DNA of 64,000 bases from Halothiobacillus diazotrophicus (lineage in GTDB: Bacteria > Pseudomonadota > Gammaproteobacteria > Halothiobacillales > Halothiobacillaceae): positions 1,116,001 through 1,180,000 of the forward strand of contig NZ_CP016027.1 of assembly GCF_001663815.1 (NCBI RefSeq), in the 5' to 3' direction. The position numbers and the translations under genes are program-made. The notes under the pieces are model-generated. The model was not told where the DNA came from. It saw only the letters and a list, made by a program, of their open reading frames with translations, and searched no databases. This document shows positions 29,558-41,912 of this stretch, piece by piece; position 1 is the stretch's first letter, and the number at the start of each line of letters is the position of its first letter.

Positions 29558-30481
29558 TCAGTTGACGCCCATGCGCCGGAAATAGCCCATGACGCGATCG
29601 GACAATCCCGTCAGCAGGGGCTTGGCCGACTTGGCCACCGCATGTCGCTTCTGCGTTTCCGGCTTGAGTTGCAGTACCTGGTGGTAATCCAGCGCCGACT
29701 GCATGTTCTTGGTGAAGGTGCCGATATGGCCCGGTTTCGGATGGAACCGGAACACTTGGCCCTGATTGATCAGCTCGACCAGCAGTTCGTAGTCGCGTAA
29801 TTGCGTCAACACGATGGTAACAAGTCCTGGATGCGTCTGCTTGAGTGCCTTGATCGCGCCGACATGGCTGGCCTGACCGTCCATCACGTCGGCCACCATG
29901 ACCCCGATGTCCTGCTGCGCCAACAATTCCGTCGCCTCGTCGAGATTGCGCGCCCAATAGAGGGCATTACCCGGCGGCGTGGCCCGCCGAACGAGTTCAT
30001 GAGCGGCGGGATCGCGATCCAGCAGGAGAATGCCCGGCCGCGATTTCTCGGGATCCGGCGCAGGCTGTGACTGCTGGTGGCGTGCCGCCGCAAAACTGAT
30101 CTCCGCCGCCTGGGCCGCAGCCCGTACGTCGGCGCGAATCTGTTCGACATCCCAGGGTTTCTGCAGAAAACGGAAAATTTCGCCTTCGTTGACCGAACCG
30201 ATCACCGCAGCCAGATCGGCATACCCGGTCAGCAGGAGGCGCATGGTGTTCGGTGACACGTCACGGATGCCGCGCAACACATCCACACCGCTCATGATCG
30301 GCATCCGCTGGTCGGAAATCACCACCGAGATGGTCTGTTGTCGCGCCATCTCGATGGCTTCGTGCCCGTTGTCGGTCGTCAGGACCTCGAACTCGCCCCG
30401 GAACAACATCTTCAGGGAGCGGGTGATGCGTGCCTCATCGTCGACCAGCAGCAAAGTAGGTTTGGTGAACAGTTCGCTCAT
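29558..30481 (-). CDS. Response regulator with two receiver-like domains
   Basis: A 307-residue cytoplasmic protein. The N-terminal receiver is complete: LLVDDEARITRSLKMLF, phosphoacceptor D57 in VVISDQRMPIMSG, and the conserved lysine in FLQKPWD. A second receiver-like domain (from about residue 150) begins ILLLDRDPAAHELV and keeps an aspartate in VMVADVMDGQ and the lysine in FHPKPG, but its acidic pocket is weaker. There is no output domain. It lies 23 bases downstream of the CBS histidine kinase, its evident partner. It resembles the RpfG/HupR-like receivers that usually carry an HD-GYP output, which is missing here. Confidence 0.85.
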   Translation of the reverse strand: MSELFTKPTLLLVDDEARITRSLKMLFRGEFEVLTTDNGHEAIEMARQQTISVVISDQRMPIMSGVDVLRGIRDVSPNTMRLLLTGYADLAAVIGSVNEGEIFRFLQKPWDVEQIRADVRAAAQAAEISFAAARHQQSQPAPDPEKSRPGILLLDRDPAAHELVRRATPPGNALYWARNLDEATELLAQQDIGVMVADVMDGQASHVGAIKALKQTHPGLVTIVLTQLRDYELLVELINQGQVFRFHPKPGHIGTFTKNMQSALDYHQVLQLKPETQKRHAVAKSAKPLLTGLSDRVMGYFRRMGVN

Positions 30482-30504: not shown

Positions 30505-31902
30505 CTAGATGGAACCGACCATGATGGTGTTCTCGGGCAAATCGTCATGATGGGTTGAGCGCATCCCTGCGGTGGCTGACGGCTCGGCATCCTGGGCATC
30601 GTCCCTCGCCGTATTCGTTGCTGAAGGCCCTTCGATCGGCAGACAGATCTCGAACCGGGTCCCGACACCGACCTTGGTGGCCAGGCGGATATCGCCACCA
30701 TGATCCTTGATGATCCGGTAGCTGATCGACAGGCCCAGGCCTGTCCCCTCGCCGACTTTCTTCGTGGTGTAGAAAGGCTCGAAAATCCGTGCCACGTGCT
30801 CATCGGAAATCCCACTGCCGTTATCCTCGATGCTGATGCAGGCGAAGGGGCCGCGCACGTAGGTGCGGATCAGTAGCCGACCACGATCGTGATTGATGGC
30901 ATGGGCCGCGTTCGTGAGGATGTTCAGCAGCACCTGATTGATCTGGGAAGGCGCGCACGGCACATCCGGAATCGGTTCGAATCGCTTTTCGATGGTCACC
31001 TTGTTCTTCAGGTGGTGTTGACCAACCGTCAGGGCCGTTTCGATGTTCTCGATCAGATTCACCCGATCGGTGGATGCTCGATCCACCCGGGCGAAATTCT
31101 TGAGACTCTGGACGATCTCGCCGATCTGCTTCAATCCGAACCGGGTGTCCTGGAATAATTCGTTCAGATCGGCAAGATCCGAGACCACGTCGAAATCTTC
31201 CCGCATCGATGCGATCGACTGGATCCGCGCCTCAATTTCCTGCGGCTCGGCCGTTTGATTGACCAGGCCATCGAACAGATGTTCGTATTCCTGCATCAGA
31301 TCCTGGATCTGGACGAGCATCTCCTGGGCCATCTGCACGTTATTGCCGACGTAACCGAGGGGCGTGTTGATCTCATGGGCAACGCCGGCCACCATCTGCC
31401 CCAAGGCGGCCATTTTCTCGGACTGGATCAGATGCGCCTGCGATGCCTTGATCTCCTGGTTGGCCTTTGCCAGCGCCTGATTACGCTGACCGAGCCGCTG
31501 CTCCACCATTTTCAGCACGTCGGCCACCGAGCCCAATCCCGCATAGGTCCCATCGGACTCGGTAAAGATGAAATCCTCGACGATCGGAATGCGAATCTGG
31601 CTCGTGACCGTGGAAATGACCTCGGTCACCGCATCCGACAGCGACACGACCACCGGCGTAGCATTCATGAAGAAGCGGATCGGCCGTTTGCCGAACAGAT
31701 CCCGCGAATACTTGTTCAGCAGGAGTTCCATCAGTGCATGGCGACTGATCAGTCCGATCGGCTGATTCTTCTCGTCGACGACCGCCAGGGAAAGCATGCG
31801 CTCGAACCCGCCCTGCTGGAATCGATCCGTCACTTCATTGAGCGGCAGATCGGCTGACAGCGGGGGTACGGATTCGAGCAGGGCTCGTAGAGGCGACGAC
31901 AT
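30505..31902 (-). CDS. Soluble histidine kinase with N-terminal CBS pair
   Basis: A 465-residue kinase with no membrane segment. Residues 15-135 form a CBS pair (NQPIGLISRHALMEL; TYAGLGSVADVLKM), likely to bind an adenine nucleotide. A coiled coil (about 132-163) leads to the H-box AGVAHEINTPLGYV with phosphoacceptor H176, an inserted helical region, and a catalytic domain with LLNILTNAAHAI, EDNGSGIS and GTGLGLSISYRIIKDHGG. Its CBS pair is clearly related in sequence to that of SiaA at 36.6 kb. It heads a two-gene unit with the double-receiver regulator. Confidence 0.9.
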   Translation of the reverse strand: MSSPLRALLESVPPLSADLPLNEVTDRFQQGGFERMLSLAVVDEKNQPIGLISRHALMELLLNKYSRDLFGKRPIRFFMNATPVVVSLSDAVTEVISTVTSQIRIPIVEDFIFTESDGTYAGLGSVADVLKMVEQRLGQRNQALAKANQEIKASQAHLIQSEKMAALGQMVAGVAHEINTPLGYVGNNVQMAQEMLVQIQDLMQEYEHLFDGLVNQTAEPQEIEARIQSIASMREDFDVVSDLADLNELFQDTRFGLKQIGEIVQSLKNFARVDRASTDRVNLIENIETALTVGQHHLKNKVTIEKRFEPIPDVPCAPSQINQVLLNILTNAAHAINHDRGRLLIRTYVRGPFACISIEDNGSGISDEHVARIFEPFYTTKKVGEGTGLGLSISYRIIKDHGGDIRLATKVGVGTRFEICLPIEGPSATNTARDDAQDAEPSATAGMRSTHHDDLPENTIMVGSI

Positions 31903-34526: not shown

Positions 34527-35327
34527 TCAGCGTTTCAGACGAAACACCATGCCACCACCCGTGAGACGCTCGACATCGAACCGATCACTCAACTGCTGGA
34601 CGGACTCGGAAGCCCCGAGAATCAGACAGCCATTCGGCACGAGGGCATCCGCAAGGCGATTGATGATTTTCGATTTGGTCTCGCGAGAAAAATAGATCAG
34701 GACATTTCGGCAAAAGATGATGTCGAAACGTCCGAGGCCACTGACGGAATCCAGAAGATTGGCCACCTGAAAACGAACCCTGCGCCGGAGTTCCGGCTTC
34801 ACCTGCCACCCCTTGTCCACCGGATCGAAGAATTGGCGCCGCCGAGATTCGGACAGACCGCGCCCCAGGGAGAGTTCGTCATAGATCCCCGATTTGGCCT
34901 GCTCCAGCACGCGCGATGACAGATCGGTACCGACGATTTCCACGGAAAACGGCGGATTGACCTCACTGACGATCATGCTGATCGAATACGGTTCCTGCCC
35001 CGAGGAACAGGCGGCGGACCAGATACGCACGGTCCGCTTGTGTGCGGGAATTTCGGGGAACAGGACGTTTTTCAATGCCTGGAAGGGATACTCGTCACGG
35101 AACCAGAGGGTTTCATTGGTGGTCATGGCTTCGATGACAGACTTCAGCAAGGCTGGATCGTGTCGCTTGAACAGCCGGTCTACCAGCTCATCCATGGTCG
35201 CCAACTGCTGTTCCCGCAACACCCGCCCCAGGCGCGTCTCCACGAGATAGCGCTTATCCGCGCCCAGCAAAATTCCACTCTGACGTTCAAGCAGCTCACA
35301 GAACTGCTGATATTGCTCCGGCCGCAT
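34527..35327 (-). CDS. cheR: CheR-type chemotaxis receptor methyltransferase
   Basis: A 266-residue protein that methylates glutamates on chemoreceptors with S-adenosylmethionine. It has the N-terminal helical CheR_N domain, the SAM-binding segment IWSAACSSGQEPYSISM, and FDIIFCRNVLIYFS, a strong CheR signature. No C-terminal tetratricopeptide extension is present. It starts two bases after the end of cheV and is surely cotranscribed with it from the sigma-28 promoter at 36332-36358. Confidence 0.94.
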   Translation of the reverse strand: MRPEQYQQFCELLERQSGILLGADKRYLVETRLGRVLREQQLATMDELVDRLFKRHDPALLKSVIEAMTTNETLWFRDEYPFQALKNVLFPEIPAHKRTVRIWSAACSSGQEPYSISMIVSEVNPPFSVEIVGTDLSSRVLEQAKSGIYDELSLGRGLSESRRRQFFDPVDKGWQVKPELRRRVRFQVANLLDSVSGLGRFDIIFCRNVLIYFSRETKSKIINRLADALVPNGCLILGASESVQQLSDRFDVERLTGGGMVFRLKR

Positions 35328-35329
35328 CC

Positions 35330-36298
35330 TTACACCGATTCAGCCAGATGCATCGGTCTGTTTTTCAGGGCTTCGGCGATGACGTGCGCTAGCTCGTCGG
35401 GGTGAAACTTCGCAATGAACTGGTCGGCCCCCACCCGTTTGATCATCGACTCATTGAACCCGCCGCTCAATGAGGAGTGAAGAATCACGTACAAACCTTT
35501 CAATCGCGTATCGCGGCGAATCTGGGTTGTCAACGCATACCCATCCATGATGGGCATTTCGATATCCGAAATGATCATGGCCAAGCGATTCAACTGTTCC
35601 GGCGAGCTATCGGCCCAGCGACGCAAAAGGCTATATGCCTCCTTACCATTCGAGGCCAGTACCGACTCGATACCCATTTGTCGCAAGGTGTTGCGTACTT
35701 GATTACGCGCGACAAGGGAATCGTCGACCACGAGCGCAATACTCCCCGGCTGGGCCATGCCCTGCACCTCATGAAGCACATCGGCGGAGATATCTTCCTT
35801 GACGCCCACCACCTTGGAGAAGATCTGCTCGACGTCGATGATTTCCACGAGAGCGCCATCAACGCGTGCCACGGCCGTCAGGAAATTCGAGGTATTGGTG
35901 CCCGTCGGCGGCGGCATGATCTCTTTCCAGGAAAGGTTCACGATCCGATCGACCGAGTTCACCAAGAACCCCTGCACGGCCCGGTTGTACTCGGTGATGA
36001 TGACGAAGGCGTCGGAAATGGCCTCAAGGGACATGCGCGTCGCACCGATGGCATCGGCGAGGTCGATGATCGTAATGGTATGGCCGCGCACATCCGCGAT
36101 GCCGCGAACCGCCGACGTGGCCTTGGGCACATCGGTCAGCTTCGGGCAGCGGATCACTTCTCGCACCTTGAATACGTTGATCCCGAACAGTTGGTCATCG
36201 CCCAAGCCGAACACCAACAGCTCGAGGCGATTGTGTCCGGCCAGACGCGTACGGGAATCCACCGAAGAGATGACATCTTTTTTCACGACGGTACTCAA
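35330..36298 (-). CDS. cheV: Chemotaxis coupling protein CheV (CheW domain plus receiver)
   Basis: A 322-residue hybrid of a CheW-like coupling domain (ELLVFGLGDDQLFGINVFKV, then ADVRGHTITIIDLADAIG) and a C-terminal receiver (ALVVDDSLVARNQVRNTLRQ; phosphoacceptor aspartate in MIISDIEMPIMDG). CheV links receptors to CheA and helps adaptation through phosphorylation. The start is not certain: the TTG at 36298 has an AAGG immediately before it, while the GTG at 36286 is 12 bases from the same AAGG. It is preceded by a near-consensus flagellar promoter. Confidence 0.93.
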   Translation of the reverse strand: MSTVVKKDVISSVDSRTRLAGHNRLELLVFGLGDDQLFGINVFKVREVIRCPKLTDVPKATSAVRGIADVRGHTITIIDLADAIGATRMSLEAISDAFVIITEYNRAVQGFLVNSVDRIVNLSWKEIMPPPTGTNTSNFLTAVARVDGALVEIIDVEQIFSKVVGVKEDISADVLHEVQGMAQPGSIALVVDDSLVARNQVRNTLRQMGIESVLASNGKEAYSLLRRWADSSPEQLNRLAMIISDIEMPIMDGYALTTQIRRDTRLKGLYVILHSSLSGGFNESMIKRVGADQFIAKFHPDELAHVIAEALKNRPMHLAESV

Positions 36299-36635: not shown

Positions 36636-37928
36636 ATGAGTCGCCCTTTCACCGCCAGACGAACGAGTCCTTCTGACATGCTCAAAGAAATCCGCTTTGC
36701 CGGTGATTTGTTGATCGAAGCCAGTGCCATCACACCCGACTACAAGAACGAAGAAGTTCTCGGGCTATTCGCCCAGAAATCCAGCCTGCAAAATCTCCCG
36801 GTTATCCTGGATGACGGACGGCCCATGGGGCTGATCAACCGCAACCTCTTCCACAGCAACATGACCAAACCGTTCTACCCGGAGCTGTACAGTCAGAAAA
36901 GCTGCATCGCCTTCATGGATAAGAACCCGCTGGTCGTGGAGGCCGCCGTCAGCATCGAGCAGTTGACCGCCCTGGCCGTCGAGGCCGGCAACAAGGTCTT
37001 CACCGACGGATTCATCATCGTCGATCAGGGCAAATACCTCGGTATCGGGCAGGTGCTCGACCTCATGCAGGCGATGACGGCACTTCAGGCCAGACAGCAT
37101 CGTCAGCTACTGGAGAGCATCGAATACGCCAGCGTCATCCAGCAATCCCTGCTCAAACCGTCCCGACTCGCACTACAGAAACATCTTCCGGACGATCATT
37201 GGCTGATCTGGGAACCGCGCGATGTCGTGGGCGGCGACATGTTTCACTTCGTGCCGCTCGAGGACGGTTTTCTCGCGGTGCTGTTCGACTGCACGGGGCA
37301 TGGCGTTCCCGGCGCCTTCATGACCCTGATCGCCGAATCGGCCCTCGAACAGGCATTGATTTCCGAAGGCGCGCGCGACCCTGCCGCCCTGCTCGGCGCC
37401 ATCAATCGCCACATCAAGCGCGCCCTGAACCAGCACGGCGGAGACGCCAACGGCCAGGAAAACTCCGATGACGGCCTGGACGGCATCGTCGTCCGATTCG
37501 ACCAATCCAGCTGCTCGCTCACTTATGCGGGCGCGCACCAATCCCTGTTCGTCCTTCCCCGCCATGGCGATGCGCCCGTACGGATCCTTTCGGGCGATCG
37601 GCAAGGCGTCGGTTATGCCGGCACAGCCATGACGGCCGCCTGGAACAACCGGACCGAAATCATCGATGAACCCAGCCGCATTTTTCTCCTGAGCGACGGC
37701 GTCATCGACCAAGTGGGCGGCCCAAAGCGAATCGCATTCGGCAAACGTCGCCTGAACAACCTGCTGATGCAAACGCGCAATGAGCCCATGCCGGTTCAGC
37801 AGGCTGCGTTTCTCGCGCAATTTGCGGATTATCAAGGACAACAGATCCGTCGGGATGACGTGACCCTGGTAGCACTGAACATTACTCCTACAACCCACTC
37901 AACAGGGACCACCACCCATGACGAATGA
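36636..37928 (+). CDS. siaA: SiaA-type PP2C phosphatase with an N-terminal CBS pair
   Basis: About 430 residues. The N-terminal half is a CBS pair (VILDDGRPMGLINRNLF; FIIVDQGKYLGIGQVLDLMQ) and the C-terminal half a SpoIIE/PP2C phosphatase with the metal-binding motifs PRDVVGGDMFHF, FDCTGHGVPGAFMTL, LLSDGVIDQ and RRDDVTLVAL. In Pseudomonas, SiaA dephosphorylates SiaC but is a membrane HAMP protein; here the sensor is cytosolic, so an internal nucleotide is the likely signal. It overlaps siaB by 11 bases. ATG 36678 is an alternative start that still leaves the CBS pair whole. Confidence 0.87.
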   Translation: MSRPFTARRTSPSDMLKEIRFAGDLLIEASAITPDYKNEEVLGLFAQKSSLQNLPVILDDGRPMGLINRNLFHSNMTKPFYPELYSQKSCIAFMDKNPLVVEAAVSIEQLTALAVEAGNKVFTDGFIIVDQGKYLGIGQVLDLMQAMTALQARQHRQLLESIEYASVIQQSLLKPSRLALQKHLPDDHWLIWEPRDVVGGDMFHFVPLEDGFLAVLFDCTGHGVPGAFMTLIAESALEQALISEGARDPAALLGAINRHIKRALNQHGGDANGQENSDDGLDGIVVRFDQSSCSLTYAGAHQSLFVLPRHGDAPVRILSGDRQGVGYAGTAMTAAWNNRTEIIDEPSRIFLLSDGVIDQVGGPKRIAFGKRRLNNLLMQTRNEPMPVQQAAFLAQFADYQGQQIRRDDVTLVALNITPTTHSTGTTTHDE

Positions 37929-38478
37929 CATGTCGCTACAAGACATCAACCCCTGCTTCCCCGGACTGGACGAGCACCTGATCTTTTTCTACGCAGGCTA
38001 TTTTTCTCAGAACATCATCAACGCAATCGGTGATGCAGTTCGTTTGCGCATCGGTCAATCCGACGCCAGTGGCAGCGTTCGTCGCAAGATCTTCTCGACC
38101 TTCATCGAGATGGCTCAGAACATCGTCCATTACTCCAGCGACAGCCTGACCCCGCCCGAGCAGACCACGCTGGAAATGCGTGCCGGGTCGGTACTGGTCA
38201 CGCATGTCGACAACGCTTTTCTCATTCTGTGCGCCAATCCCGTCAGCCAGGAATTCGCGGAGCAGCTCACGCCACAACTGGAACCGCTGCGCGCCATGAC
38301 GAACGAGCAGATCAAGGACGCCTACCGCAAGGCCCTGCGCTCGGAAACCAACGAAAACAGCAAGGGGGCCGGACTCGGGCTCCTGACCATCGCCAAGGAC
38401 AGCAGCGCGCCCATCGAGTACGGATTCAATCCGATAGGCAACGGAATGCTGATGTTCACGCTGAAGGCGACAATCTGA
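37918..38478 (+). CDS. siaB: SiaB-family protein kinase
   Basis: A 186-residue protein with a GHKL/anti-sigma-type ATP-binding fold: an N-box-like EMAQNIVHYS near residues 64-73 and a glycine-rich NENSKGAGLGLLTIA near 147-161. In the Sia pathway SiaB phosphorylates SiaC and so opposes SiaA. The ATG at 37918 lies within the end of siaA, giving an 11-base overlap and tight coupling. The family assignment rests on sequence pattern together with its place between SiaA and SiaC. Confidence 0.87.
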   Translation: MTNDMSLQDINPCFPGLDEHLIFFYAGYFSQNIINAIGDAVRLRIGQSDASGSVRRKIFSTFIEMAQNIVHYSSDSLTPPEQTTLEMRAGSVLVTHVDNAFLILCANPVSQEFAEQLTPQLEPLRAMTNEQIKDAYRKALRSETNENSKGAGLGLLTIAKDSSAPIEYGFNPIGNGMLMFTLKATI

Positions 38479-38509
38479 AAAGACCAATTAAAATTAATAG
38501 GATATCATC

Positions 38510-38896
38510 ATGAACAAACTATATCTGGCGCCCACCAGCAACACACCCGAAGTCGATTTCGATTTTGCATCACGTCGACTGTCCCTCAAGGGGGAATCCT
38601 ACCCGGAGAGCGCGGCCGCCTTCTATGGTGACATCCTGAACCAGACTTCCGATTTTCTCGGCACGCTGAGTAATGAAGATGTCCATGTCGTCGTCCAGCT
38701 GAACTACTTCAACAGCTCCAGCACCAAGATGCTGTTCAGCTTCTTCGATCGCCTGAATCAGGCCGCCGAGGACGGCAATCAGATCACGCTGGACTGGCAT
38801 CACGATGTCGATGACGAGACCATTCTCGAATTCGGACTGGAAGTTGCCGAAGACTTCCCAGCCATCGAATTCAACGCCCACGCGCTCGAATCGTAA
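38510..38896 (+). CDS. siaC: SiaC-family regulatory phosphoprotein (DUF1987)
   Basis: A 128-residue STAS-like protein. It opens MNKLYLAPTSNTPEVDFDF, and the phosphorylation loop reads LNYFNSSSTKML (residues 64-75), then ends in the FGLEVAEDFPAIEFNAH segment typical of DUF1987. When dephosphorylated by SiaA, SiaC binds and activates the diguanylate cyclase SiaD; phosphorylation by SiaB blocks this. In the Pseudomonas protein the acceptor is a threonine in this loop; here the likely equivalent is S69 or a neighbour. It begins 31 bases after siaB and its stop overlaps the siaD start. Confidence 0.9.
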   Translation: MNKLYLAPTSNTPEVDFDFASRRLSLKGESYPESAAAFYGDILNQTSDFLGTLSNEDVHVVVQLNYFNSSSTKMLFSFFDRLNQAAEDGNQITLDWHHDVDDETILEFGLEVAEDFPAIEFNAHALES

Positions 38897-39678
38897 TGGA
38901 CCCGCACACCCTCGGCCATCCGGATCTTTTCGAGCGGGAAAAGGCCGTTCTCGACCGCGCTGTCGCTGCGCACAATCAAGGGCCTGACACCCCGCATCGC
39001 GAAGCATTGGGCGAATTGATCGGCGAATTCGAACGTGTGATTCGCGAAATGCGCCGCGTCATCGGCCACTCCGATCGTACGGAATTGGAACTCAATATCG
39101 CCAACGTGCGCCTGCGCGAACTGACCGAAGCGTTGACCTATCAGAACCGGCATGACGGGCTCACCCGTCTGCTGAATCGGAACACCCTGATTCACGAAGC
39201 CGAACGGCTCCTGATGCAAGGGCCAGTCGCGCTCATTCTTCTGGATATCGACCATTTCAAGCAGATCAACGACCGCTACGGCCATCCTGTCGGTGACAAG
39301 GTGCTCACCGGGCTGGCCACGGAAATCGCCAAACTCGTGACCTACCCGGGATTTGCCGGGCGACTGGGTGGCGAGGAATTCGCCATGGTGATCCCCACTG
39401 CAGACATTCGACAGGCCATCATCCTGGCCGAAGAGGCCAGTCACGGCATCCGCAACCTGCGGTCGAGCACGGAGGAAGGACTGCGGATCACGGCGTCGTT
39501 GAGCGTCACCATTGCGCCCAAGGGATTTCCTTTCGAAAAGCTCTATCTGTGCGGGGATGACGCCCTCTATCGAGCCAAGCACAACGGCCGGGATCGAATC
39601 GAAATCGTCTGGTCGCCACTGGCCCCGATGGACGCACCGAAAGCCAGTGACCCGGTAAGCGCGCCCCAGCCACAATAA
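38896..39678 (+). CDS. siaD: SiaD-type diguanylate cyclase
   Basis: A 260-residue soluble protein. Residues 1-90 are helical with a coiled coil (FERVIREMRRVIGHSDRTEL), the region by which SiaD is held by SiaC. The GGDEF domain has the active signature GRLGGEEFAMVIP and the metal-binding LILLDIDHFKQINDRYG. The RxxD inhibitory site is absent (the equivalent region reads YPGF), so it should not be shut off by its own product. TAATG overlap with siaC sets the start. It is the output of the operon and makes cyclic-di-GMP. Confidence 0.92.
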   Translation: MDPHTLGHPDLFEREKAVLDRAVAAHNQGPDTPHREALGELIGEFERVIREMRRVIGHSDRTELELNIANVRLRELTEALTYQNRHDGLTRLLNRNTLIHEAERLLMQGPVALILLDIDHFKQINDRYGHPVGDKVLTGLATEIAKLVTYPGFAGRLGGEEFAMVIPTADIRQAIILAEEASHGIRNLRSSTEEGLRITASLSVTIAPKGFPFEKLYLCGDDALYRAKHNGRDRIEIVWSPLAPMDAPKASDPVSAPQPQ

Positions 39679-39743: not shown

Positions 39744-40829
39744 ATGAGCAAAACGTTCGACGTATCCGCCAGGACGTGTCTGGCAACCTGTCTCTTTCTC
39801 CCCATGGGCGCTCAAGGGGCTTCGCAGCCCGCATCGGGGGACCCACTAACCCGATGTAGCGTCATCACGAACGACCAGTCGCGACTTGCCTGTTATGACG
39901 CGTTGGCCAGGCGTTCGCTGCCCGCCTCGGAGACTGTCGTGCACGCCGCCCCCCTTCATCCGGAGCGCTTGTCCGAAGCGATGCCACCCGCATCGGCCGA
40001 ACCCATCGGGTCGCCATCATCGGTCGAATCCGAGGAGGATGCGCTTGGGAAGCGTCTCGCCGATGAAGAACAGAAGAACGACAACCCCTTCCTCATCCGC
40101 GCGTTCAAACCGAACTACATGCTGGTAGCAAGCTATACGCCAACCCGTCTGGATCGCCCGGTATATGATTTCTCGCCACAGCAGGTCGAAGCAAAGTTCC
40201 AGTTATCTTTCCAGTTCGACTGGTGGGATCAGCCATTCGGCAAGGACACCGCCTTCTACTTCGGTTACACGCAGTTGTCCTTCTGGCAGCTCTACAATAG
40301 TGAACTGCTCGGCTCCCATGCTTCCGCCCCCTTCCGTGAAACCAACTACGAGCCCGAGATCGGCCTCGACATGACCACGCACCATCGTCTCGGCGACATG
40401 GATTTTCGGAAACTGCGTTTCAGCTTCATCCATCAGTCCAACGGACAGGGCGGCGAACGTTCCCGCAGCTGGAACCGGCTGGCGGTACAAAGCGTGTTCG
40501 GTGCCGGCAATCTGGCGGGTGCCATTCGTGCCTGGTACCGGCTCCCCGAGTCCCGCGCCACCGACGACAATCCGGACATTACCGACTATCTGGGCTACGG
40601 GGATCTGACGTTGGCCTACAAGATCAAGGACGCCACGCTTTCGGCGACGCTACGGAACAACCTCAGAAGAAACAATCGCGGATCGATCGAAATCAACTAC
40701 AGCCAGCCACTGAACAAGCACATCCGAGGCTATGTCCAGTATTTCAACGGGTACGGCGAAAGTTTGATCGACTACAATCGTTCCATCAGCCGCTTCGGTA
40801 TAGGCGTGGCGCTCACCGACTGGCTGTAA
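39744..40829 (+). CDS. pldA: Outer membrane phospholipase A
   Basis: A 361-residue beta-barrel enzyme that hydrolyses phospholipids in the outer leaflet. A signal peptide (about residues 1-25, cleaved near MGAQGA) leads into a polar N-terminal extension of about 85 residues, then the barrel. The catalytic motif is FIHQSNGQGG, with H230 and S232 as catalytic pair, and the RSWNR asparagine completes the triad. The GYGESLIDYNRSISRFGIG C-terminal strands are typical. Calcium-dependent dimerisation is known for the family. The extension (with a CYDALARR repeat-like start) is longer than in E. coli PldA. Confidence 0.92.
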   Translation: MSKTFDVSARTCLATCLFLPMGAQGASQPASGDPLTRCSVITNDQSRLACYDALARRSLPASETVVHAAPLHPERLSEAMPPASAEPIGSPSSVESEEDALGKRLADEEQKNDNPFLIRAFKPNYMLVASYTPTRLDRPVYDFSPQQVEAKFQLSFQFDWWDQPFGKDTAFYFGYTQLSFWQLYNSELLGSHASAPFRETNYEPEIGLDMTTHHRLGDMDFRKLRFSFIHQSNGQGGERSRSWNRLAVQSVFGAGNLAGAIRAWYRLPESRATDDNPDITDYLGYGDLTLAYKIKDATLSATLRNNLRRNNRGSIEINYSQPLNKHIRGYVQYFNGYGESLIDYNRSISRFGIGVALTDWL

Positions 40830-40874: not shown

Positions 40875-41912
40875 TCACGCACCGATCATTTGTGCCCGAT
40901 CCATCGCCTTGGCCTCGAGAGCCTGTGCTACGGTTTCCGAAATCTCGTCGATCGGATCGAAAGCAGCCCCACCTACCGCAGCGGGAATGCCTTCCGCTTC
41001 CAGCGCCGCCTTCAGCTTGTCGCCCAGCCGCTCGGAACCCATGGCCCCGCATTCCAGCGCCAGGACAGCGAACTCGCTCCCATCGATGCGCGCCAGCAGA
41101 TCGCTTTCCCGCACGCAGATCCGCATGCACGATGCGGCACGACTGACCAGCGCGTCGTCCACCTCGGCACCCGGCGCGATTTCGACCACGAGGACACAGA
41201 CAGCCACGCCATATCGCCGTACGCGTGCTGCCTCCAGAGCAATCCCCGCCTCCCAACCCCGACGGTTGAGCAGCCCCGTCAGATCGTCGGTCTGTGCCGC
41301 CTCAAGCGTGCGCTCGAGCAATCGCTGCTGCGCCACCGCCTTCAACTCGTTATCCAGCACAATGCCCAGCAGACGTGCCAGCAATTCCATGAGCGGGACC
41401 AGACGGGCCACATCCACGTCCTGCGGATCGGGGTCCATCGCGCACAGCGTCCCCAGAAAAGAACCATCACCCCGCATCATCGGCACACCGACATACGCGC
41501 CAATCGGCAGGGACTGGCAGAGCGGCGCCTCTGCATAAACGGCGACATCTTTCACGGAAGGTGCCGCGCGAGGTCCCTCGTCGTACAGCATGCGGGCGCA
41601 GAGGGTTTCACTCCAGGGATAGACGCGTCCCTCGTGAAGGTCGTACCCGTGGTTTTCCGCCTGGAGCACGATCCAGTCGTCCCCTTCGGTCCGGGTCGTC
41701 ATCCAGAGCTTGAAGCCGAACTCCTGATGCAGATAATTCAGAATGGCCCGACTGGCTGACTCGAACCCTTCAGCGACAATCAGAGCCGACAGATCGGGGA
41801 TAATCTTGGTATCGACCGCCGATGACAACGATGGTGCGTTTTGATCCTGTGACAAGTGACGACTCCCTATGACTGGCGCCCATGCGGCCCCGCAATCCCA
41901 GCCAAACGACAT
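40875..41912 (-). CDS. GAF-domain protein with a degenerate GGDEF domain
   Basis: A 345-residue soluble protein. Residues about 40-190 form a GAF domain (GAYVGVPMMRGDGSFLGTLC). The C-terminal GGDEF-type domain keeps the fold (DDLTGLLNRRGW) but the active site reads ARIDGSEFAVLA instead of GGDEF, and the metal-binding DxDxFK is replaced by VVEIAPGAEV. The inhibitory RESD motif is intact. It therefore probably binds cyclic-di-GMP without making it. It converges with pldA. The ATG at 41912 is followed by a weakly conserved 30 residues, so the true start may be further in. Confidence 0.85.
   Translation of the reverse strand: MSFGWDCGAAWAPVIGSRHLSQDQNAPSLSSAVDTKIIPDLSALIVAEGFESASRAILNYLHQEFGFKLWMTTRTEGDDWIVLQAENHGYDLHEGRVYPWSETLCARMLYDEGPRAAPSVKDVAVYAEAPLCQSLPIGAYVGVPMMRGDGSFLGTLCAMDPDPQDVDVARLVPLMELLARLLGIVLDNELKAVAQQRLLERTLEAAQTDDLTGLLNRRGWEAGIALEAARVRRYGVAVCVLVVEIAPGAEVDDALVSRAASCMRICVRESDLLARIDGSEFAVLALECGAMGSERLGDKLKAALEAEGIPAAVGGAAFDPIDEISETVAQALEAKAMDRAQMIGA

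Follow-up and report, generated by a model that had tools for sequence, protein, structure and literature searches.

The product of the Sia pathway, cyclic di-GMP (c-di-GMP), is the bacterial "settle down" signal, whose production is switched on by four genes, and the signals proposed for the phosphatase SiaA of Pseudomonas aeruginosa include detergent, carbon, and temperature through the membrane. In P. aeruginosa, a kinase/phosphatase pair acts on the phosphoprotein SiaC, which activates the diguanylate cyclase SiaD (PMC8457831, PMC7647112), and the SiaABCD system responds to carbon availability (PMC7647112). Here we describe a tight siaABCD operon of Halothiobacillus diazotrophicus (contig NZ_CP016027.1, positions 1,116,001 to 1,180,000; this whole stretch of 64,000 nucleotides (nt) is referred to as the window, and coordinates are counted from its first letter), which occupies positions 36678-39678 of the + strand and encodes, in this order, a PP2C phosphatase, a HATPase-type kinase, a SiaC phosphoprotein and a GGEEF cyclase. 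It shares with P. aeruginosa SiaABCD (structures 6k4e, 6kko and 7e6g) the four-gene set, the gene order, the catalytic residues, the SiaC family and the stalked cyclase; P. aeruginosa SiaA, however, possesses two transmembrane helices and a HAMP domain, where SiaA of the window carries a pair of CBS domains. We consider that this locus represents a Sia partner switch whose input lies in the cytosol, a reading to which (taken as a mechanism in its entirety) we assign a probability of about 0.62.

The arrangement also resembles the RsbU-type PPM phosphatases (PMC12143880), with which it has in common an N-terminal sensor, a helical linker, a PP2C domain and a partner switch made up of a phosphoprotein and a HATPase-type kinase; the two differ in their output, which is a diguanylate cyclase in the CBS-type Sia system and a sigma factor in the RsbU-type general stress response. 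In RsbU it is through a coiled-coil linker that the phosphatase domains dimerise and become active, and PAS, receiver, GAF and HAMP sensors have been proposed to be exchangeable through such a linker (PMC12143880). CBS has 0 occurrences in the main text of that paper; an older analysis places CBS among the N-terminal sensors, and PP2C among the outputs, that are joined by a signalling helix (PMC1592074). Furthermore, Sia-like sets with periplasmic sensors have been predicted in Campylobacterota (PMC9239204).

Gene content and catalytic residues of the operon

The four genes, all on the + strand, follow each other closely: siaA (36678-37928, 416 amino acids; Pfam SpoIIE 3.2e-18, CBS 4.1e-5) overlaps siaB (37918-38478) by 11 nt, a gap of 31 nt separates siaB from siaC (38510-38896), and siaC and siaD (38896-39678) share 1 nt. 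SiaB was recognised as a HATPase-type kinase (NF038262 201.8 bits, cut-off 85; DUF6272, the SiaB-family kinase in NCBIfam, 3.6e-40) and matches P. aeruginosa chain 6kko_A at 5e-15; SiaC belongs to PF09345 (6.6e-37; 126.3 bits against a cut-off of 24.5), and SiaD (GGDEF 1e-32) has the SiaD structure 7e6g as its best match in the PDB (1.5e-22). The initial annotation, made from the letters alone, had proposed a Sia-type phosphatase, kinase, phosphoprotein and cyclase in overlapping or closely spaced genes, and both the families and the layout bear this out. The siaA start at ATG 36678 is favoured over an upstream TTG (36633), since the frame of the closest relative (L027) opens at the same methionine and the genus mates agree (an in-frame MLKEIR/MLREIR start at this ATG in 7/7 with an intact gene). 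Little could be learnt from scans for promoters and terminators (promoter-like sites numbered 4 where 1.5 were expected, and the + strand ahead of siaA had none of them), and PHROGs returned no match at E <= 0.01. In the H. diazotrophicus genome (2.9 Mb, one contig) there are 1 SiaC, 3 SpoIIE, 45 GGDEF and 5 PilZ matches.

Residues associated with catalysis are conserved far beyond the window: Asp187, Asp204, Asp340 and Asp394 of SiaA are invariant in 45/45 aligned CBS-type SiaA, Glu64 (within EMAQN) and Asn68 of SiaB occur in 80/80 aligned CBS-type SiaB, and GGEEF is intact in 88/88 CBS-type loci of ABCD order (a count that includes duplicates and the unrelated gene of L089). Glu64 aligns with Glu61 of P. 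aeruginosa SiaB, the predicted catalytic residue (PMC7647112). As the catalytic residues of SiaA, SiaB and SiaD are kept, the four-protein set is probably active.

A CBS pair at the N-terminus of SiaA

SiaA of the window has no membrane part and no HAMP match; its N-terminus consists of a predicted CBS pair (residues ~8-125, positions 36699-37052, + strand), joined by one long helix (residues 126-169, 37053-37184, + strand; DSSP assignment on the AlphaFold2 model) to the PP2C/SpoIIE domain (residues ~170-402). The full-length AlphaFold2 model, in which the CBS-like region, the helix and the PP2C domain are all visible, reaches a mean predicted local distance difference test (pLDDT) score of 91.4, and a model of residues 1-140 reaches 90.9. 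When the latter was compared with solved structures, the 50 rows shown aligned it with CBS pairs over 115-132 residues (VIA Z 16.4-14.1), the top match being 2p9m (Z 16.4, 125 residues, 2.0 Å), with AcuB 9s4y (Z 16.3, 127 residues, 2.7 Å) and MgtE 2zy9 (Z 15.5, 123 residues, 2.2 Å) further down; MJ0922, AcuB, MgtE and DarB are all represented. Two CBS repeats of known fold are thus present in the predicted model, the second of them unseen by Pfam, whose match (24.3 bits, barely above the 24-bit cut-off) covers the first repeat only; across the family, Pfam CBS is found at E <= 0.001 in 38/45 aligned CBS-type SiaA. When the sequence of the CBS region was itself compared with the PDB, the hits were weak (best 0.027); the family profile was stronger (5.9e-7), and the fold search decided. 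The PP2C part of the model matches the SiaA-PP2C structure 6k4e with 34% identity and a TM score of 0.94 (by target), and helix 126-169 stands between sensor and PP2C in the manner of linker-dimerised PPM phosphatases.

Homologues of this CBS module occur on other signalling outputs. About 5 kb from siaA, a histidine kinase (30505-31902, - strand) carries an N-terminal homologue (8.2e-7) and is adjoined by a receiver-domain protein (29558-30481, - strand), so that two different outputs of the window have the same sensor type. An EAL-CBS-GGDEF enzyme with a homologous module lies elsewhere in the same genome (L109; G000:C1:1609155-1609523), and such enzymes adjoin siaA in Ectothiorhodospira (L029) and in a Rhodocyclaceae genome (L031), follow siaC in L088 and lie ~2.4 kb off in L136. 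These proteins differ from SiaA in having no PP2C domain and a direct c-di-GMP or histidine-kinase output; their shared module fits the idea of an exchangeable cytosolic sensor. Bordetella DdpB, with CBS domains between GGDEF and EAL (PMC12805831), resembles them by its description, and CBS domains in c-di-GMP enzymes have been called presumed energy sensors without validated roles (PMC8846402).

Candidate inputs of the CBS pair

The initial annotation had further proposed that the CBS pair reports nucleotide or energy state. In AcuB the riboses of bound nucleotides are held by one Asp per repeat (i.e. Asp52 and Asp122; PMC13121692), and a ribose-binding Asp in each repeat is not found in CBS-type SiaA: in the first repeat the place is taken by Leu57 in the window protein and by Asp in 0/45 family members, while in the second the window protein keeps Asp128, with Asp in 21/45 (both places were located by aligning profiles, with weak matches, to CBS proteins of solved structure that have Asp at them). 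The pocket therefore lends the earlier proposal no backing, and we consider it somewhat disfavoured. Binding of adenine nucleotides by the CBS pair, as a means of signalling energy charge to the phosphatase, seems doubtful to us, in spite of Asp128, of the carbon response of P. aeruginosa SiaABCD (PMC7647112) and of the adenine-nucleotide-binding pairs among the near folds (AcuB with AMP, ADP, ATP and Ap4A; MgtE with ATP): AcuB uses both of its Asp residues, and fold likeness alone shows no ligand. Since the ribose Asp is absent from the first repeat and partial in the second, an adenine nucleotide may be regarded as a possible ligand (especially for the second site in SiaA of the window) and not as the default one.

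The residues that are invariant in the CBS module of CBS-type SiaA (Arg55, Phe58, Cys76, Phe79, Met80, Pro84, Gly111 and Phe112, among others) permit two further explanations. The module could be a docking and dimerisation surface for a protein partner and not a small-molecule sensor (as in DarB binding Rel), which would agree with the loss of the canonical ribose Asp, with the constancy of Arg55, Phe58 and Cys76 (should these be exposed) and with the presence of the DarB-Rel complex among the fold matches; yet other invariant positions (Gly51, Met80, Pro84 and Gly122) look like ordinary CBS core, and we regard this explanation as rather unlikely. Improbable, in our opinion, is a redox or metal sensor built on Cys76, between the repeats: this residue is present in 45/45 CBS-type SiaA, with Ile or Leu at its place in 6/8 homologous CBS modules outside phosphatases, but it is the sole invariant Cys of the module, and two EAL-CBS-GGDEF modules also have Cys there, so that it is not strictly SiaA-specific.

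Distribution of CBS-type loci

An intact CBS-type siaA followed by siaB, siaC and siaD was found in 10/11 relatives from the genus and family, the eleventh (L021) being broken by a contig end. A scan of a genome collection yielded at least 552 confirmed proteobacterial relatives. Among the best 80 of these, which were fetched, the CBS-PP2C frame was present in 80/80 (the query favours such frames), accompanied nearby by a SiaC frame in 80, a SiaB frame in 79 and a GGDEF frame scoring >100 bits to the SiaD profile in 66; 62 loci show the plain ABCD order, 3 show other orders (two of which, L032 and L089, look artefactual, either because of where the midpoints of the frames fall or because the GGDEF gene is the wrong one) and 15 are incomplete. 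The titles of these 80 include Ectothiorhodospira, Cupriavidus, Duganella, Janthinobacterium, Acidovorax, Delftia, several non-aeruginosa Pseudomonas, Pectobacterium, Dickeya and Bordetella. As it recurs far beyond the genus and family, the CBS-type arrangement is not a product of chance. Two irregular loci were also noted, i.e. L086, in whose fetched region no SiaB frame was found, and L106, with an A-C-B order and no SiaD.

A phylum-wide sample drawn by SiaC, and hence blind to sensor type, contained SiaC in 54/397 genomes (67 places). The 65 places that could be typed (G451 and G538 were left out as partial or below cut-off) comprise 12 CBS-type ABCD loci (window included), 9 other ABCD, 3 BCDA and 41 incomplete ones, with a CBS phosphatase at 13/65; the CBS label derives from a profile built on the CBS-type SiaA family, so that a very different CBS pair may escape among the other loci. 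Among 370 genomes sampled from the window's class, 12 contain SiaC (14 places), 2 of the places being CBS-type (the window and L136), and one family (f145) holds the membrane type in some genera and the CBS type in one. For the calling of transmembrane segments we relied on a simple hydropathy window. HAMP was detected in 5/10 of the other SiaC-linked phosphatases scanned (including L166, L154, L193 and L133). Moreover, three loci (L151, L162 and L176) have a receiver-domain phosphatase at siaB/siaC, which is likewise linked to SiaC and takes its input through a cytosolic domain, and which by its domain content is a further predicted input type for SiaC; it differs from the CBS type in the domain itself, in its place across the dividing branch of the PP2C tree and in having no SiaD-scoring gene >100 bits in the fetched stretch.

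An old four-gene lineage

The statement that the CBS pair stands in place of the membrane region could be read as a swap of sensors on an ordinary SiaA, and this is where the trees lead elsewhere. In a tree of the PP2C domain alone, from which the sensor was excluded (84 rows: 44 hand-picked from 104 CBS loci, all 20 complete other loci and 20 of the rest), CBS type and other types are separated by one change (Shimodaira-Hasegawa-like approximate likelihood ratio test (SH-aLRT) support 99), and a single change is likewise found for SiaB (86 rows, SH-aLRT 100), SiaC (88 rows, 99; few columns and long branches were flagged) and SiaD (52 rows, 97). As all four protein trees set the CBS type apart along a single branch, it is, on this phylogenetic evidence, an old co-inherited four-gene lineage and not a swapped sensor. 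The trees were quick ones, assessed by SH-aLRT only, and are unrooted. A recent or repeated domain swap would agree with the variety of sensors on SiaC-linked phosphatases (HAMP, receiver and CBS) and with the first run of the SiaB, SiaC and SiaD trees, which gave 2 changes each (approximately unbiased tests of one CBS clade: p 0.049, 0.39 and 0.08, respectively). The PP2C domain by itself argues the opposite, as do the second-run trees, obtained after L021 (the cut-off same-genus contig, labelled 'other') and L199 (a long branch) were dropped from those of SiaB and SiaC, and L089 (an unrelated GGDEF gene) and L034 from that of SiaD, these drops being made together; we judge such a swap to be very improbable.

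SiaC acceptor site, SiaD stalk and inhibitory site

Further differences from P. aeruginosa are found downstream of the sensor. Ser69 of SiaC (in NSSS) aligns with the phosphorylated Thr68 (in NTSS) of P. aeruginosa (6kko_C/6k4f), and Ser can still be phosphorylated. The acceptor place is Ser in 104/104 CBS loci (4 of them duplicates) and in 54/64 other loci, Thr being found in 9/14 ABCD and 1/6 BCDA loci. Ser in place of Thr was rejected as a marker of the CBS type, as it also occupies the place in 44/44 incomplete and 10/20 complete other loci.

In P. aeruginosa, SiaC binds two motifs of the SiaD stalk (Ser50/Gln54 and Ser82/Gln86), and the R201A exchange in SiaD largely abolishes feedback inhibition (PMC8457831). 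SiaD of the window has one docking motif (Ser59-Asp60) and, at the place of the inhibitory-site (I-site) RxxD, TYPG. Across the family (4 duplicate and 3 odd-order loci removed), RxxD five residues before GGEEF is retained in 1/81 distinct CBS-type SiaD, against 13/14 other ABCD and 4/6 BCDA loci; in the sole exception (L053) the GGDEF gene lies ~770 nt past siaC and may not be a siaD. Counted in fixed windows from the GGDEF start, the Ser-Asp motif stands at -28 in 76/81 CBS types, exactly one heptad further out than the near motif of the P. aeruginosa-like proteins, which have motifs at -21 and -53 (9/14 other ABCD). A near motif is found in 78/81 CBS types, 13 of which (and 1 more row) have some Ser/Ala/Gly-Asp still further out, at scattered offsets, while a second motif at the 32-residue spacing of P. 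aeruginosa occurs in 2/81. Two earlier counters, loose or strict in design, gave uneven counts and were replaced (the first: one motif in 79/88 CBS loci, two in 8/14 others; the second: none in 29/81 and one in 51/81 CBS types, two in 10/14 others). The single motif and the missing RxxD suggest that CBS-type SiaD would bind one SiaC dimer per SiaD dimer (2:2, where P. aeruginosa has 4:2) and would be free of canonical product inhibition.

The almost complete loss of the I-site from CBS-type SiaD, together with the relatedness of the SiaA module to that of EAL-CBS-GGDEF enzymes, would also be consistent with a feedback that has moved, i.e. with the CBS pair of SiaA binding c-di-GMP or a guanine nucleotide akin to it (pGpG, GTP or ppGpp), the loop being closed at SiaC phosphorylation; we give this a small chance. 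We know of no CBS-pair receptor for c-di-GMP so far, and SiaA would then, to our knowledge, be the first.

Neighbouring genes

Upstream of siaA, and pointing away from it, lie CheR and a CheW-receiver (CheV-like) gene (34527-36298, - strand). On the other side, a phospholipase A1 gene (39744-40829, + strand) begins 65 nt past siaD on the same strand, so that cotranscription is possible though not certain; it is followed by a gene (40875-41912, - strand) that matches GGDEF in part (model positions 1-117 of 161; 42.6 bits, which exceeds the cut-off) and whose product, with GSEF at the place of GGDEF, is probably inactive.

Proposed mechanism and implications

The layout of SiaA fits the scheme of sensor, helix and PP2C, which would make the CBS pair the input, the helix the transmitter and Ser69 of SiaC the substrate. 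We propose that SiaA, as a dimer held together through its linker by analogy with RsbU (PMC12143880), receives an internal signal (ATP or AMP not being assumed) at its CBS pair, and that the resulting change would travel down helix 126-169 to the PP2C dimer; in this manner the CBS pair would gate the phosphatase. The state of the dimer would set the rate at which phosphate is removed from Ser69, to which SiaB would add it, and free SiaC would dock on SiaD at the one Ser-Asp motif in its stalk, holding the cyclase in an active dimer that produces c-di-GMP. As SiaD has no RxxD, its output would not be held by the usual product inhibition, and control would rest on the balance of phosphatase and kinase. 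Of the suggestion that an external surface signal is exchanged for an internal one of nucleotide or energy state, the first half survives in our reading: a phosphatase with a cytosolic CBS pair instead of a HAMP-bearing membrane part probably has an internal input.

Several observations weigh against this cytosolic-input form of the Sia switch. All four proteins miss the NCBIfam equivalog cut-offs (SiaA 200.3 bits against 700, SiaB 83.7 against 225, SiaC 77.5 against 150, SiaD 127.6 against 290); the SiaA cut-off of 700 is passed by 4/4 membrane-type proteins scanned, and for two CBS types besides that of the window the scores are 195 and 186. Together with the 34% identity of the PP2C domain, this means that the mechanism is carried over by homology. 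The place of Gln86 of P. aeruginosa SiaD, which contacts Thr68, is Glu in the window, hence SiaC docking may differ here. Moreover, 15 CBS loci have no adjacent SiaD-scoring gene, and in view of these and of L086 SiaD may not be the output in every case. To this are added the two changes in each first-run tree of SiaB, SiaC and SiaD, the modelling of SiaA as a monomer and the fact that no experiment on the CBS-type lineage was found in the open-licence papers.

In these papers (searched by titles, abstract starts and passages, with preprints and the EMBO J 2020 SiaABCD paper outside this scope) no description of a CBS-type SiaA was found either, and within that literature the system may rightly be called little-described, as the initial annotation had it. 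Rare it is not, given its 12 ABCD loci against 9 of other types in the phylum sample and its relatives, at least 552 in number. While the Sia pathway itself is known, its CBS type is widespread, coherent and apparently undescribed as a type. Taken together, these results place a soluble sensor in an old Sia lineage of many environmental and plant-associated bacteria; being soluble, it allows the input to be studied with purified protein. Furthermore, features that have been assumed for Sia systems (i.e. a Thr acceptor, two docking motifs and product inhibition) need not hold throughout the family.

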